From: Deltaproteobacteria bacterium
GTDB lineage: Bacteria > Desulfobacterota > Dissulfuribacteria > Dissulfuribacterales > UBA3076
Length of the DNA stretch: 64,000 nucleotides
Assembly: GCA_018399745.1 (NCBI GenBank)
Contig: JAGYNZ010000003.1
Span: forward strand, 1 to 64,000
Reading direction: 5' to 3'
Below are positions 5,131 to 15,765 of the stretch, piece after piece. Position 1 is the first letter of the stretch. Each line of letters opens with the position of its first letter. The notes under the pieces were generated by a model. It searched no databases. It saw only the letters and a program-made list of their open reading frames with translations, and had not been told where the DNA came from. A program made the position numbers and the translations under genes.

Positions 5131-5775
5131 TTATTTGTGATCCATCAGCAGCGTCCTGACGCCCTCAATAATGGATCTCACCGGTCGTCCAAAGAAAAAC
5201 TCCAGTTCGGTTTCTTTAACCCCCATACTCTCAACCACCTTTTTGCGAAAGGCCTCATCAGTTGAAATCATCCGGTCTATTTCAGGATTGCTTTGCCGGG
5301 TTCCTTCTTGTGAACCCGCCTCACTGAGCAAACTATAAATTCGTCCAGGAGGAAAGCTCCGCTCATAGGCCGATATCAGTCCCTCAACGGCAGAGCCTTT
5401 TGGACAGAGATCAACACGTGACAGGAGGTCTTTCATGAAAAGATCTTCAAGATCCTTGGTATCCCAGCATTTGAGGACCCTGCATTCCAGGGGACGGCTC
5501 TCATAAATGCCACAGGCATGTTGATCTGCATCGTAGAACGTGCAAGTGCTTGACCCATCCCTGTTTTTTACCTTAATCATTTCATACGATAGTTCTACAA
5601 GCCTCTCCTCAAGGGGATTAAATGCCAGCTCTCCTGCCCTAAGAGTAAAGAGGTGTATCGGCCTCAGGGTACCCTTCTGCAGAAAAATCCTGTCCTCGGA
5701 GTGGAGAGCAGGGCCGCCTTTTTCGCAGCATGTGCCGCACCGTATACAGGACCTGATTTTTTTTTTCGATTCCAT
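5131..5775 (-). CDS. YkgJ-family cysteine-cluster protein
   Basis: 214 residues. The N-terminal CIRCGTCC and the later cysteines in the TCTFYDADQHACGIYESRP and LECRVLKC segments form the pattern of the YkgJ/FliB-type cysteine cluster family, thought to bind Zn or an Fe-S cluster. The C-terminal third (after about residue 120) is helical and has no recognised motif. It points away from a second YkgJ-type gene, with only 39 bp between the two starts, so the pair must share a compact divergent promoter. It lies directly behind dsrABD and is convergent with it. A maturation or metal-handling role is possible, but nothing here proves it. Confidence 0.75.
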   Translation of the reverse strand: MESKKKIRSCIRCGTCCEKGGPALHSEDRIFLQKGTLRPIHLFTLRAGELAFNPLEERLVELSYEMIKVKNRDGSSTCTFYDADQHACGIYESRPLECRVLKCWDTKDLEDLFMKDLLSRVDLCPKGSAVEGLISAYERSFPPGRIYSLLSEAGSQEGTRQSNPEIDRMISTDEAFRKKVVESMGVKETELEFFFGRPVRSIIEGVRTLLMDHK

Positions 5776-5814
5776 AGTAAATATACTTCCTGTATTGTAT
5801 TGTTATCAGGTAAT

Positions 5815-6381
5815 ATGCGCATTCAAAAGGATATACCTGTGTTTAAAGACCTTGAAAATCTGTTCGATTTCGCTGACAGGGCAGTAGCGGATGTACAGAA
5901 ACGCTACAGTAAGGAAGTGCGTTGCAAAAAGGGCTGTAATGACTGCTGCTATGCGGTATTTGACATCTCATTAATAGAAGCATTCTATATACGCCATCAT
6001 TTTGATTCACTTGGCAGAAAGCAGAGACGCGCTGCCCTGAATATTGCAAAAAAGGCCTTAAAGACCTGGAATCATTTAGCCACGACCCAGGCAGACCTCT
6101 CATTTGCCCGTATCAGATGCCCTCTGTTAACTGACGACGGAGAATGCGCCTGCTATAATGCCCGGCCAATAAACTGCCGCACCTATGGAATACCCACTTT
6201 GATAGATAATAAAAGTCATGTATGCGGACTCTCCGGTTTTGAACAGGGAAAAATCTATCCTGCCCTTAATCTGGAACCCCTGCAAAAAAGACTCTATGAA
6301 CTATCTGCAGAATTGAATGATAAGGATCTCGGCAGAAGACGTTGGCCAGTGGCCGCCGTACTCCTTGATAATATTGTATAA
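5815..6381 (+). CDS. YkgJ-family cysteine-cluster protein, second copy
   Basis: 188 residues with the same fold as its divergent neighbour but a different cysteine arrangement: CKKGCNDCC near residue 40, then RCPLLTDDGECACYNARP and NCRTYG. An upstream in-frame Met at 5653 exists, but it would place 54 residues inside the divergent gene and those residues do not look like the family; the ATG at 5815 gives a normal N-terminus (MRIQKDIPVFKDLENLFDFA). The stop lies 1 bp from the stop of the convergent TPR gene. Ligand unknown; the cysteine set suggests Zn or Fe-S binding. Confidence 0.75.
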   Translation: MRIQKDIPVFKDLENLFDFADRAVADVQKRYSKEVRCKKGCNDCCYAVFDISLIEAFYIRHHFDSLGRKQRRAALNIAKKALKTWNHLATTQADLSFARIRCPLLTDDGECACYNARPINCRTYGIPTLIDNKSHVCGLSGFEQGKIYPALNLEPLQKRLYELSAELNDKDLGRRRWPVAAVLLDNIV

Positions 6382-6382
6382 A

Positions 6383-6988
6383 TCATTTATTGGAAGCCCC
6401 GGCCGACATGGCCTCCTCAACTATCTTGATGCCCTTTTCAAGTATCTCCGCTCTCTCCCTGTATGCCGCGCCCTGATATATTCCATGTGCAGTCCTATAG
6501 GCATCCAGGGCCTTATCCAGTTCATTCCTCTTCTGATAGATATCACCGATTCCTGTAAGATACAGCCCGGCCTTGCCGATATCCCCGAGCTTTTCCACAA
6601 GCTCAAGTGCTCGAAAATAATATGGAAGTACCCTATCCAGATTCCCTAATTGTCTGTAGAGATCAATGATTTTCTCTGCCAGCAAGACAGTGCTAACTGG
6701 ATCGTTATTCTTCTCGCATATTGCCAGCGCCCTCTGATAGGCAGGTACGGCCCCCTTGAAATTACCCCGCATTGTGCGAAGATCCCCTATCTTCTCGCAG
6801 ATGTTTGCAACCTCCACGTCCTTTCCGTCAGCGGCTTCAAAAATTTCAAGGACCTTCTCAAATTTCTCCAATGCGTCTAGGGACCTCCCCTGGGCACTCA
6901 TGACTTTTGCCTCCTGGTACATGAGTTCAGCACCGGACAACTCTTTATCTTTATCTGCTTTCACATGCGAAGCCGCTTGCTCATCCAT
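6383..6988 (-). CDS. tetratricopeptide repeat protein
   Basis: 201 residues with no signal peptide or membrane segment, so probably cytoplasmic. At least four TPR pairs can be traced (GRSLDALEKFEKVLEIFE, GNFKGAVPAYQRALAICE, GNLDRVLPYYFRALELVE, NELDKALDAYRTAHGIYQ). It is the last gene of a minus-strand run of three: the HEAT-repeat gene ends 15 bp upstream. As a TPR protein it should bind a partner, perhaps one of the neighbours. No specific function can be named. Confidence 0.8.
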   Translation of the reverse strand: MDEQAASHVKADKDKELSGAELMYQEAKVMSAQGRSLDALEKFEKVLEIFEAADGKDVEVANICEKIGDLRTMRGNFKGAVPAYQRALAICEKNNDPVSTVLLAEKIIDLYRQLGNLDRVLPYYFRALELVEKLGDIGKAGLYLTGIGDIYQKRNELDKALDAYRTAHGIYQGAAYRERAEILEKGIKIVEEAMSAGASNK

Positions 6989-8134: not shown

Positions 8135-8791
8135 TTAACCTCCCTCTCTCTTGGAACCGACTTTGGCGGACACCATCTCCTCAAACTGGGAAGCAACCTT
8201 GTATCCCAACTTTCTGGCCTTCTCAAGATGATCAAGCGCCAAATCATAGTCCCCATGATAGTAGTAGGCAACGGCGAGGTTGTTGTGAGCAACACCAAAC
8301 TTTGGGGCCAGACTGATGGCCTTTTCCCCTGCCGCAATTGCACTCTCCAGCTCATCAAGCTCCACGTTGACCGTGACCAGATTCGCCAGGGCAGTGATCA
8401 TTTCCGGCTTGACCTCAAGCGCCCTGTTGAAATATTCCGCTGCCTCTTTCCATCTCTGCATATGAATTAAGGCCGCACCTATATTAGCCATGGCCTCAGT
8501 AGATTCGGGACGAATCTTGAGTGCCTCTTCACTCTGTTTTATACCATCCTCAAGTCTACCCATCTGGAAATACAGTGTACTCAAATTGAGCCTAATCTCA
8601 AAAGACAATGGATCCAGTTCCATGCCGTAATTAAAAGCGATTTCCGCATCCTCCAGTCTTTCCGCATTCCGGTAAACCATGCCGAGCCTGAGGGCCGCCA
8701 TGACGGATTTCATATTATTCTCCATCTCTTTCTCAAGGTCTCTAATCAATTGATTCTGGCGGACGGTTTTATCTCGCGGCGGACGGGTCAT
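8135..8791 (-). CDS. tetratricopeptide repeat protein
   Basis: 218 residues, almost entirely TPRs (about five: AERLEDAEIAFNYGMELDP, GRLEDGIKQSEEALKIRP, QRWKEAAEYFNRALEVKP, DELESAIAAGEKAISLAP, GDYDLALDHLEKARKLG). No export signal. The start follows a good AAGGAGG site 6 nt before the ATG. It is the first gene of the TPR-HEAT-TPR run on the minus strand. It probably binds other proteins of the neighbourhood. Confidence 0.8.
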   Translation of the reverse strand: MTRPPRDKTVRQNQLIRDLEKEMENNMKSVMAALRLGMVYRNAERLEDAEIAFNYGMELDPLSFEIRLNLSTLYFQMGRLEDGIKQSEEALKIRPESTEAMANIGAALIHMQRWKEAAEYFNRALEVKPEMITALANLVTVNVELDELESAIAAGEKAISLAPKFGVAHNNLAVAYYYHGDYDLALDHLEKARKLGYKVASQFEEMVSAKVGSKREGG

Positions 8792-9095
8792 AAACTCCTC
8801 CTTATATTAAAAAACACAAATATTTTTGGTACCATGAACAGAAAAATATAACATACTTTTAATCTCAAGGCACCAGTAAGATACGGTGGTGAACGTCAAA
8901 AACCGAAAGTTCAAATCGAATTGGCTATGCCTCTACTCGAACATCTTGTGAATGTCTGGCCTCTTTGGGCCCTCCATTCGAACCCGCAGCCAATATCTCT
9001 GTTTGTCCATGCCATCTCTTATGTGTTATTATAAACAACAACGGCAACAGGGCCAAAATAACTACTGAAAAAATCCCCGATTTTGAGAGGACATT
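8792..9095. other. divergent intergenic region before the selenoprotein gene
   Basis: About 300 bp between the minus-strand TPR gene and the plus-strand dual-CxxC gene. It should hold divergent promoters, but I see no convincing -35/-10 pair. ATTGGCT (8920-8926) and AGCCAAT (8988-8994) are perfectly complementary 7-mers 75 nt apart end to end, with a TTCGAAC-like stretch between; this gives a tRNA-like outline but the internal arms do not pair. A short open frame from 8965 has no family resemblance. Confidence 0.5.
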
Positions 9096-9317
9096 GTGGA
9101 GAAAAGCTGTCTTACCTCAGTTGATAACGGACTCCGTTGCTTTGCATGTGGCGGTCCGGTCCGATTAGAGGGCAAATGACATAACGCGCGAGTGGTCTGC
9201 AAGGCTTGCGGACGGGAATTTCCAGCCAGTCTCTATAGTGATGATATCGAAGACATGAAGGAAAGAATGATCCATCATTTATACGCAGAGATTCCCTCCT
9301 CTCATAAAGACCCCTGA
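9096..9317 (+). CDS. small dual-CxxC protein with in-frame UGA, probable selenoprotein
   Basis: Read from GTG at 9096 this gives 73 residues: a CFAC motif (C15, C18), an in-frame TGA as codon 28 (9177-9179), a second CxxC (CKAC, C35 and C38), an acidic segment, and a normal TGA stop at 9315. The start is supported by GAGAGG at 9085-9090, 5 nt before GTG; an in-frame stop lies just upstream. A hairpin with GGTCT in its loop starts 7 nt after the internal TGA, as in bacterial SECIS elements. The layout fits what I recall as the family called dual CXXC motif small (seleno)protein, often found in Desulfobacterota. Continued zinc-ribbon coding on both sides of the TGA argues against a random stop. 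A pseudogene or a sequencing error remains possible. It sits between two dsr-related operons and ends at a shared terminator. Confidence 0.65.
9187..9210 (+). promoter_or_regulatory. SECIS-like hairpin just after the in-frame UGA
   Basis: CGCGAG (9187-9192) pairs with CTTGCG (9205-9210): six pairs, one of them G-U. The 12-nt loop carries GGTCT at 9194-9198, the same loop motif as the E. coli fdhF SECIS that binds SelB. The UGA-to-loop distance is 13 nt, a little shorter than the 16 or more usually quoted for bacterial SECIS elements. Confidence 0.5.
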
Positions 9318-9373
9318 ACTCCAAAAAAGTCAACTGCCAACCGCTATAGGCGTTATTTTTGACAGATAAAATA

Positions 9374-9406
9374 AAAAAGCCCTCCATATATGATGGAGGG
9401 CTTTTA
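9374..9406. terminator. bidirectional rho-independent terminator
   Basis: GCCCTCCAT (9379-9387) and ATGGAGGGC (9393-9401) form a perfect 9-bp stem with a 5-nt loop, flanked by A-run and T-run. It serves both the plus-strand dual-CxxC gene and the minus-strand dsrMKJOP operon. Confidence 0.9.
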
Positions 9407-9431
9407 ATGCTTTTTAATAAGGCCTCTTATC

Positions 9432-10595
9432 TTATGTTGTTGAGGCCTCTTCCTCCCTGACCGCAATTGCAACCTTGTGAAGCACCGTAAGTATCAACGC
9501 CCCAATTGCCCAAATGGCCAAAGTGATGGAAATCTCCGGGAAGGTGGCCGAGTATTCTATAATCCTGTGGAATGGATTAGGAATAAAACCGCCAATGACC
9601 AACCCGATACCCTTATCAATCCAAGCGGCAAGAAAGATCGATGCACAGGCAAAGGCCAGGATACCATGATGTCTGCGGGCGGACGGGATCAATAACAGAA
9701 TGACGCCGATAGCCGCAAATGGGGCAGCCGTCCACATCCAGGCCACAAGCTTGCCGTGACCATGCAGACCGGCATACAGGTATTGAAGAGGATGCATATG
9801 CCCCGGGATATTGCTGTAAAAGGCCGTAAATACCTCCATTCCAACCAGGAACAGATTTATTATCATGGCATACAATATGGTTTTGGCAATTGTCTGCAGG
9901 GCATCCCTTCCAGGATCGAACTTGCTGACCCGGCTTATGATAAGGAGCACCAGAACCAGCAATGCCGGACCGGAGGCAAAGGCCGATGCAAGAAATCTGG
10001 GAGCCATTACCGCTGTCAGCCACAAATGCCTTCCAGGAAGACCGGCATACAGAAACGCTGTCACCGTATGAATGCTGACTGCCCATGGAATGGAAAGCCA
10101 TATAAAGGGCTTTAACCACCCCGGGTGCGGCCTATGTTGAGCATCCGCCAGGAGGCAGTTATATCCGACTATTATATTGATAAGGAGATAGCCAGCCAGA
10201 ACAATCATATCATAGAAAAGTATGGAGTTGGGAGTCGGGTGCAATAATACATTAAGCATCCTCTGCGGCTGTCCTATATCCACCACGATAAACAGCATAC
10301 ACATGGTTACCGCCGCAATGGCCAGAAATTCACCAAAGATGACCACCTTTGCGTATTTCTTGTAGTTGTGAAGATACAATGGTATCACTATCATCACAGC
10401 AGACGCGGCCACTCCGACCAGAAATGTGAACTGAGCGATATAGACACCCCAGGAGATGTCCCTGCCCATCCCGGTAATTCCCAATCCTTTATGGAGCTGA
10501 TAAAACCAGCAACCCATGCCGACACCAATGATGCCCAGCAGAAAAACCAACCACATATAGTATCTAGGTTCACCCTTTAAAGCCTTTTCTATCAT
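9432..10595 (-). CDS. dsrP: DsrP, NrfD-type integral membrane subunit
   Basis: 387 residues with about ten hydrophobic segments, the size and pattern of the NrfD/PsrC family. In the DsrMKJOP complex, DsrP is the quinone-interacting membrane subunit that pairs with the periplasmic ferredoxin-like DsrO and cytochrome DsrJ. It is the last gene of the operon: GAGG 5 nt before its ATG, 7 bp after dsrO, and a strong terminator 25 bp beyond its stop. Confidence 0.93.
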   Translation of the reverse strand: MIEKALKGEPRYYMWLVFLLGIIGVGMGCWFYQLHKGLGITGMGRDISWGVYIAQFTFLVGVAASAVMIVIPLYLHNYKKYAKVVIFGEFLAIAAVTMCMLFIVVDIGQPQRMLNVLLHPTPNSILFYDMIVLAGYLLINIIVGYNCLLADAQHRPHPGWLKPFIWLSIPWAVSIHTVTAFLYAGLPGRHLWLTAVMAPRFLASAFASGPALLVLVLLIISRVSKFDPGRDALQTIAKTILYAMIINLFLVGMEVFTAFYSNIPGHMHPLQYLYAGLHGHGKLVAWMWTAAPFAAIGVILLLIPSARRHHGILAFACASIFLAAWIDKGIGLVIGGFIPNPFHRIIEYSATFPEISITLAIWAIGALILTVLHKVAIAVREEEASTT

Positions 10596-14526: not shown

Positions 14527-15108
14527 TTACCTCACTTCTCCTAGACCGCAACTATTACAGCAGTCTTTAGTCCCCTTTTTACCCTGCATCTGTTCTTGCC
14601 GAAGCATATAGGAAAGACACCTTGCCTCTCCCTCTACGAAATATGGTCTCTTTTTAAATTCATCCAGTTTGATTGCCCAAATCTTCTCCCTGCACTTCAT
14701 ATATACGTCAAAGGCAAGGAGAACACAATAGTCGATCCTCGATTCAAATTCCAGCAATTCTTCAAAAAGTCCGCCGTGATCTATATCTTTCTTCATCTCA
14801 TCCCTGATGACTTTCTTAAGCAGAAAAATAACAGCGACAGCCATTGAAGGAGAAAAATCCTGAACCGCCCTTATTCTGATTATGCTATCTAGAAAGGAAG
14901 ACATATTCTGCGGATTATTTTCGTTAAGGATTTCATCAAATAGAGGCCCCACCGCCTCGGAAATTGAAGCACCCAGGGGATTGGCAAATCTGTTTCTTTG
15001 ATTCCTGAAAAACTCTGCTGTTTCAGAAGGATAGGTTTCCTGGATACTATGAATCCACTTGTCTACAATAAATTCTCTTTTTTTTGTCAGGAGTTTTTCT
15101 AAATTCAT
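14527..15108 (-). CDS. RsbRD N-terminal domain-like protein upstream of dsrM
   Basis: 193 residues from the ATG at 15108 (MNLEKLLTKKREFIVDKW), the usual opening of the RsbRD N-terminal (globin-like helical) domain. A first Met at 15141 is possible but gives an atypical leader. The helical body (FLDSIIRIRAVQDFSPSMAV) fits the domain. The C-terminus has a cysteine pair CCNSCG that the plain domain lacks. As I recall, genes of this type often sit directly before dsrMKJOP in sulfate reducers, so a sensory or assembly role for the complex is plausible; it is inferred from position only. Confidence 0.65.
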   Translation of the reverse strand: MNLEKLLTKKREFIVDKWIHSIQETYPSETAEFFRNQRNRFANPLGASISEAVGPLFDEILNENNPQNMSSFLDSIIRIRAVQDFSPSMAVAVIFLLKKVIRDEMKKDIDHGGLFEELLEFESRIDYCVLLAFDVYMKCREKIWAIKLDEFKKRPYFVEGEARCLSYMLRQEQMQGKKGTKDCCNSCGLGEVR

Positions 15109-15765
15109 ATCTGCACTATTTTTATAAGACTTCAGGCACAAATTATTGATAGAACCACTGATAACATATTAAAATTTAATGATTAATCCTGTAGAAACGA
15201 TCGGCTTTCATTATTTCTTTTCTTTCAAACTATTCAGAATTCCGCATAATTTTCTGAATGACAATTCATAATGAACATCTCTATAGACAAAATGTGATTC
15301 CATGTCAAGACCAACTATGTATGAAACTGGATTTGAATATATTTTTCCTCTTCTCAAATTTTTCGAACGGGAGAAAAAAGATCTGCTTATTATTCAGTTG
15401 GCATTTTGCCTGCAACTAATTTAAATTAATGTCTCGTATATGAAATAAATAATTAAATTAGAGCAGGCAACAAGGAAGCGTTGATATTGAAAGAGGACTT
15501 TCCATTCATAAGCTTCCTGCTTAAGAAAGGCCTTTTTGCCAATAGGCCGATGTTCTGTTTTCCCATAATCCATTTATGCCATATATCCATATTTTAATTA
15601 TTCCAAAATTCCAGTTGGAGCAAAGGCCTGGGTTCAATATATTAAAACTGCGGTTATGCCGGCGATTCTTGACTACTACCTATACAAACTGTTAGGTCTC
15701 TATTCTGAAAAAAAGTCCAAAGAAGCCGCCTTTTTAACTGCGACGCAAACGCTGTCGGTAACTAA
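15109..15765. other. divergent intergenic region between the dsrMKJOP operon and the radical SAM gene
   Basis: About 650 AT-rich bp. It contains the minus-strand promoter at 15280-15308 and a 12-bp AT palindrome (TAATTTAAATTA) near 15417-15428. I find no credible ORF on either strand and no clear plus-strand promoter for the radical SAM gene. Confidence 0.55.
15280..15308 (-). promoter_or_regulatory. promoter of the RsbRD-dsrMKJOP operon
   Basis: On the minus strand TTGACA (15308-15303), spacer 17 nt, TATAGA (15285-15280). It lies about 170 nt before the first start codon and is the best sigma-70 match in the intergenic region. Confidence 0.6.

Follow-up and report, generated by a model that had tools for sequence, protein, structure and literature searches.

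A clade of NF041197 (OS_HP3) small selenoproteins linked to the dsr genes in Dissulfuribacteria

In the 64,000-nucleotide stretch of a Dissulfuribacteria contig that we analysed (the window), the frame at 9096-9317 very probably encodes a 73-residue selenoprotein of a clade of the NF041197 family (clade B), which is linked to the genes of dissimilatory sulfite reduction (dsr). An earlier note on this DNA had proposed a hidden selenoprotein gene at this place. Its selenoprotein reading is borne out by sel genes in the source genome, a conserved TGA, cysteine-bearing homologues and a SECIS hairpin that matches the published bacterial model. While the gene is a real selenoprotein gene, its family is not new; it is already catalogued as NF041197 or OS_HP3, and hence the kind of selenoprotein was known. 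The frame, re-read from the sequence, agrees with the earlier description in its GTG start, 73 codons, paired CxxC motifs and intervening TGA, as does the purine-rich putative ribosome-binding site of its own (Table 1). Further support for the GTG start comes from the family orthologues, which share ATG or GTG at the equivalent codon. With UGA read as selenocysteine (Sec, U), the product is VEKSCLTSVDNGLRCFACGGPVRLEGKUHNARVVCKACGREFPASLYSDDIEDMKERMIHHLYAEIPSSHKDP. Ordinary gene callers are indeed liable to miss or truncate the gene; it need not be lost to all routine annotation, however, because the window copy exceeds the NCBI cut-off when UGA is taken as Sec or Cys, and a Sec-aware pipeline could therefore detect it.

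Table 1. Coordinates of the selenoprotein gene, its signals and its neighbours in the window
Feature	Position	Strand	Basis or remark
TPR protein TPR1	6383..6988	-	Pfam TPR
HEAT-repeat protein, N-terminal Cys-rich zinc-ribbon-like segment	7004..8125	-	domain search
TPR protein TPR2, at the head of the divergent TPR-HEAT-TPR operon	8135..8791	-	Pfam TPR
Shine-Dalgarno-like GAGAGGA, 4 nt upstream of GTG	9085..9091	+	sequence
Predicted selenoprotein gene, 73 codons (coding frame 9096-9314) and TGA stop	9096..9317	+	clade B of NF041197 (CxxC_Se_CxxC, OS_HP3)
First CxxC, codons 15-18	9138..9149	+	invariant in 40 aligned sequences
Predicted Sec codon UGA, codon 28, motif GKUHNARVVC	9177..9179	+	TGA in 39/40 class B-type genes; the remaining one has TGC (Cys)
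Predicted SECIS hairpin, 8-bp stem 9195-9202/9206-9213, loop GGC 9203-9205	9195..9213	+	covariation, synonymous recoding, bSECIS constraints
Second CxxC, codons 35-38, within the SECIS stem	9198..9209	+	invariant in 40 sequences
Termination codon UGA	9315..9317	+	sequence
Intrinsic terminator (13-bp stem), bidirectional, separating the selenoprotein gene from dsrP	9375..9405	.	terminator-like sites 3 vs 0.6 expected
dsrP, which ends dsrMKJOP and converges on the selenoprotein gene	9432..10595	-	

Recoding of the in-frame UGA

The source genome (2.65 Mb, 97.5% complete) contains all four genes for which the earlier note had called for a search, each over its cut-off: selA (607 bits), selB (355), selD (384) and selC in the form of tRNA-Sec (74.5). 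Its selD (L040, G000:C2:62587-63513) has one in-frame TGA of its own, and SelD is therefore likely to be a selenoprotein too. Across the class, selA is over the cut-off in 41 of 46 genomes and the family is matched in 42 of the 46, with nearly all of the matches reading through exactly one TGA. The single Cys-bearing gene in the aligned TGA column is L080; other Cys forms occur beyond the class in clade B (L118, L129) and, for clade A, in several families of the phylum (e.g. L084-L105; also L258, L259). The homologues continue past the TGA instead of ending there, and with about 39 class orthologues having TGA in the same alignment column, the zinc-ribbon coding that had been pointed out on both of its sides is far beyond chance. 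Pooled within the genus, pN/pS is 0.44 before the TGA and 0.34 after it, and the latter value indicates that the downstream part is a constrained protein.

Comparison of the orthologues shows the UGA at codon 28 to be a predicted selenocysteine codon, which SelB and tRNA-Sec would decode under the direction of the 9195-9213 hairpin. In an alignment made gaplessly from the UGA (stem in columns 19-26 and 30-37, loop in columns 27-29), 92% of the stem cells are paired, four pairs are changed on both sides and 39 cells are compensatory. The covariation score of the stem is 0.346, against 0.119 for shuffled alignments (equalled in 0 of 500 shuffles) and at most 0.093 when the stem is slid. The innermost pair is seen as C-G, A-U, G-C and U-A, and the protein does not explain this because the two bases that pair are a second codon position and the third position of the codon that follows. 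Upon synonymous recoding the hairpin region proved stabler than expected (mean z -1.33, p 6e-10, n=39), as it did outside the class (z -1.27), the flanks within the class had no significant stability, and one downstream stretch outside the class gave z -0.57 (p 0.012); these p-values overstate independence because the sequences are related.

Published constraints on bacterial SECIS elements specify an apical loop of 3-9 nt, an upper stem of 4-16 bp, a G in the first two loop positions, a distance of 16-37 nt from the UGA and an MFE of at most -7.5 kcal/mol (PMC13188914), and the 9195-9213 hairpin lies within each of them, with a loop of 3 nt, a stem of 8 bp, 23 nt between UGA and loop and a local MFE of -10.3. 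RNAalifold recovered the inner five pairs only, and the 8-bp version was scored directly. As a single-sequence fold the region is no better than shuffles (z 0.19), and the evidence for the SECIS is comparative. The earlier note had placed the SECIS in a different hairpin, with GGTCT in its loop (9187-9192/9205-9210). That hairpin can form, but across the orthologues it is paired in 53% of cells, barely above controls, and we reject it as the SECIS in favor of the conserved one with the GGC loop. Two families of other classes (f39 and f72; L113-L117, L119, L124, L127) have a SECIS hairpin in a different register, and their proteins have RCLTCG in place of VCxxCG.

The unremarkable single-sequence fold is also what one would see if the TGA were a nonsense mutation or a sequencing error, or if CxxC frames flanked a stop by chance. 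Yet the same TGA is found in independently assembled species, in different families and in other classes, with purifying selection and a SECIS downstream of it and with Cys homologues, and we regard such an origin as next to impossible. Conservation across assemblies rejects the pseudogene, nonsense and error readings; in particular, the independent assemblies of sister species also have the TGA, which speaks against the error at 9177-9179 that had been considered. If this organism read UGA as Trp or Gly, the frame would be open as well (codes 4 or 25), but the gene itself terminates with UGA, and thus the codon is not reassigned genome-wide. As the Sec machinery is complete and the homologous residue at codon 28 is Cys, never Trp or Gly, in the sequences seen, this reading too is rejected as almost certainly wrong. 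Termination is possible at any Sec codon, and it is conceivable that the UGA acts mainly as a regulated stop, yielding a 27-residue peptide with one knuckle, and that the complete protein is made solely under ample selenium. The conservation of both knuckles and of the region after the UGA, together with the selection on the SECIS, makes a primary role of this sort very unlikely as against selenocysteine insertion.

Family, clades and predicted fold

Read with C for U, the product scores 45.5 bits (cut-off 40) against the NCBIfam model NF041197, 'dual CXXC motif small (seleno)protein'; in a six-frame search that read through the stop it scored 36, and the model is matched by all 40 aligned sequences. 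A 2026 review lists the family as hypothetical protein OS_HP3, a predicted selenoprotein with the Sec motif RxU and no function given, and treats a differing Sec motif as a distinct subfamily (PMC13188914). Our tree of 127 sequences is split into clades A and B with support of 100/100, the inner forks being unsure because the alignment has few columns. Clade A is characterized by RxU and a C-terminal DR[IL], and clade B by G[R/K]U, which within the class takes the form GxU. The source genome carries clade B only, and the window motif, E-G-K-U with G at -2 and K at -1, departs from the RxU of the OS_HP3 subfamily. Thus the window protein is like NF041197/OS_HP3 in length, in its two CxxC motifs with Sec between them at the equal alignment position and in scoring over the curated cut-off. 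It is unlike it in that the motif of the review is that of clade A, and in belonging to a separate clade without an RCDR[IL]-like C-terminal ending. Clade B is a motif subfamily absent from the list in the review. No constant neighbours of the clade A genes were found. Divergent variants with an in-frame TGA, in which the first knuckle is changed (family f58: L120, L123, L126, L142) or the motif is UQG (family f17: L139, L141, L146, L147), are possibly further subfamilies.

AlphaFold predicts strands at residues 21-25, 32-35 and 41-43 and a helix at 44-65, with a mean pLDDT of 79 and core blocks of 85-92. The model suggests a small zinc ribbon, in which two CxxC knuckles are followed by a C-terminal helix; in keeping with this, the four knuckle cysteines are invariant and a β-hairpin ribbon is predicted. 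A profile search of the PDB gave no homologue, and a fold search gave no structural match at E 0.001. LysW, ZifS and the CPxCG proteins share with the window protein two Cys-pair knuckles, a short β-hairpin and weak profile and fold similarity, but the match to them is not significant and they have no Sec. Moreover, LysW acts through a C-terminal Glu carrier site, and none is seen in the window protein.

Genomic linkage to the dsr genes

In most genomes of the class the gene is a unit of its own between the divergent TPR-HEAT-TPR operon and the convergent dsrMKJOP genes, which is the position that the earlier note had given for the window copy. TPR2 is its most constant neighbour: of 40 class B-type loci, 31 have it adjacent and divergent, and 30 have a dsr gene, usually the convergent dsrP, no more than about 5 kb away; these are hand counts, and several of the loci end near the gene at contig ends. 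Two genomes have dsrAB in place of dsrMKJOP after the gene, and some have a radical SAM gene in between. Outside the class, one locus (L135) keeps the block of dsrAB, TPR-HEAT-TPR and selenoprotein gene; clade B genes there are mostly away from dsr genes, no other constant neighbour was found for them, and a comparison of loci with DsrP as the query found none at the DsrP loci of Nitrospirota and other groups beyond the class. The terminator of the window gene is its own and is bidirectional with dsrP. Promoter-like sites in 9003-9056 are no more frequent than chance would give, and an Rfam scan of 8800-9500 gave sub-threshold matches only, around the terminator. Elsewhere in the region, the gene at the head of dsrMKJOP (14527-15141) encodes an RsbRD_N-domain protein whose C-terminus is rich in Cys; a number of class genomes also have it upstream of dsrM. 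Between dsrABD and the TPR-HEAT-TPR operon, two oppositely oriented genes for PF03692-like CxxCxxCC metal-chelating proteins (5131-6381) are recurrent.

Among 395 genomes of the phylum, dsrA is over the cut-off in 188 and selA in 355. Clade B, counted by hand at E 1e-7 or better, is present in 52, namely 51 of the 188 dsrA-positive genomes versus 1 of the 207 others (Fisher p 2e-17, in a test that ignores relatedness). Clade B in this phylum is nearly confined to dsrA genomes, and the pattern is not a mere reflection of Sec use, because selA is so widespread. The sole dsrA-negative genome with clade B is G016, where the gene lies at a contig end. In the other direction, 137 of the 188 dsrA-positive genomes lack clade B, and in G037 and G038, of the same genus, and in G003 DsrP and TPR2 are in place with the selenoprotein gene absent; G037 and G038 have selA. 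The selenoprotein is therefore not essential to sulfite reduction, and its loss in some species indicates an accessory role. Nor is it an obligate component of the dissimilatory pathway, being adjacent to dsr mainly in the class and missing from many dsrA genomes. The gap of about 1.5 kb between dsrP and TPR2 in G037 and G038 contains an unrelated uncharacterised frame of about 400 codons (L243:4448-5716, L244:6878-8209). With the components of DsrABCD and DsrMKJOP clade B shares the genomic neighbourhood and the near restriction to dsrA genomes, but it is not a known Dsr component, has no similarity to one and is dispensable in some species.

Possible functions

A redox role in sulfite reduction had been suggested in the earlier note. 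Synteny and co-occurrence strengthen the link to sulfite reduction, while the redox part is one that we infer. We tentatively propose, as the likeliest role though at less than even likelihood, that the protein is a cytoplasmic selenol that takes part in the Dsr sulfur pathway. It would be soluble, with the four cysteines binding a structural metal, and the single Sec, in the basic G[R/K]U..A[K/R]V turn between the knuckles, would be an exposed reactive selenolate, whose flanking basic residues might suit it to anionic sulfur compounds. Such a selenolate could act on sulfur intermediates or disulfides of the pathway, for example as a reductant or carrier of persulfide or trisulfide sulfur in the vicinity of DsrC/DsrAB; the partners of the protein would be Dsr or TPR-HEAT-TPR proteins. 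A fuller version, in which clade B would be a selenium-dependent accessory of both sulfite reduction and sulfur disproportionation, a zinc-ribbon selenol handling persulfide or trisulfide sulfur between DsrC/DsrAB and DsrMKJOP, is speculative and on balance unlikely.

The constancy of TPR2 as a neighbour, even where dsrAB or a radical SAM gene replaces dsrMKJOP and also in L135, raises the alternative that the selenoprotein works with TPR-HEAT-TPR as an assembly or maturation factor (one that delivers metal, siroheme or Fe-S, or that provides redox quality control) and does not act on sulfur intermediates. TPR and HEAT proteins are typical scaffolds, the selenoprotein gene has a divergent promoter region in common with that operon, and the same block encodes the two CxxCxxCC (PF03692) proteins. 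However, TPR-HEAT-TPR stays where the selenoprotein has been lost (G037, G038, G003), and most other families have clade B without TPR-HEAT-TPR, so that we consider this reading somewhat unlikely. The weak fold matches, among them the small zinc-finger protein ZifS and zinc ribbons from RNA polymerase subunits, would be compatible with a redox- or selenium-responsive regulator of the dsr region, its ribbon placed on nucleic acid or polymerase. As none of these matches is significant, many clade B genes are far from dsr, and Sec is nearly always used for chemistry, a regulator appears improbable.

The link of clade B to dissimilatory sulfite reduction appears to be new; the titles, abstracts and passages searched yielded no paper connecting NF041197/OS_HP3 with dsr. 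OS_HP3, a predicted selenoprotein without an assigned role, now comprises two clades, of which clade B has a covarying SECIS and an association with dsrA genomes that, within Dissulfuribacteria, extends to the dsr locus itself. This class includes cultured sulfur disproportionators, and hosts such as Dissulfurimicrobium hydrothermale, whose strain Sh68T belongs to its order Dissulfuribacterales (PMC8780430), make a role testable. Should the link prove functional, the machinery of sulfite reduction or disproportionation would include selenium.
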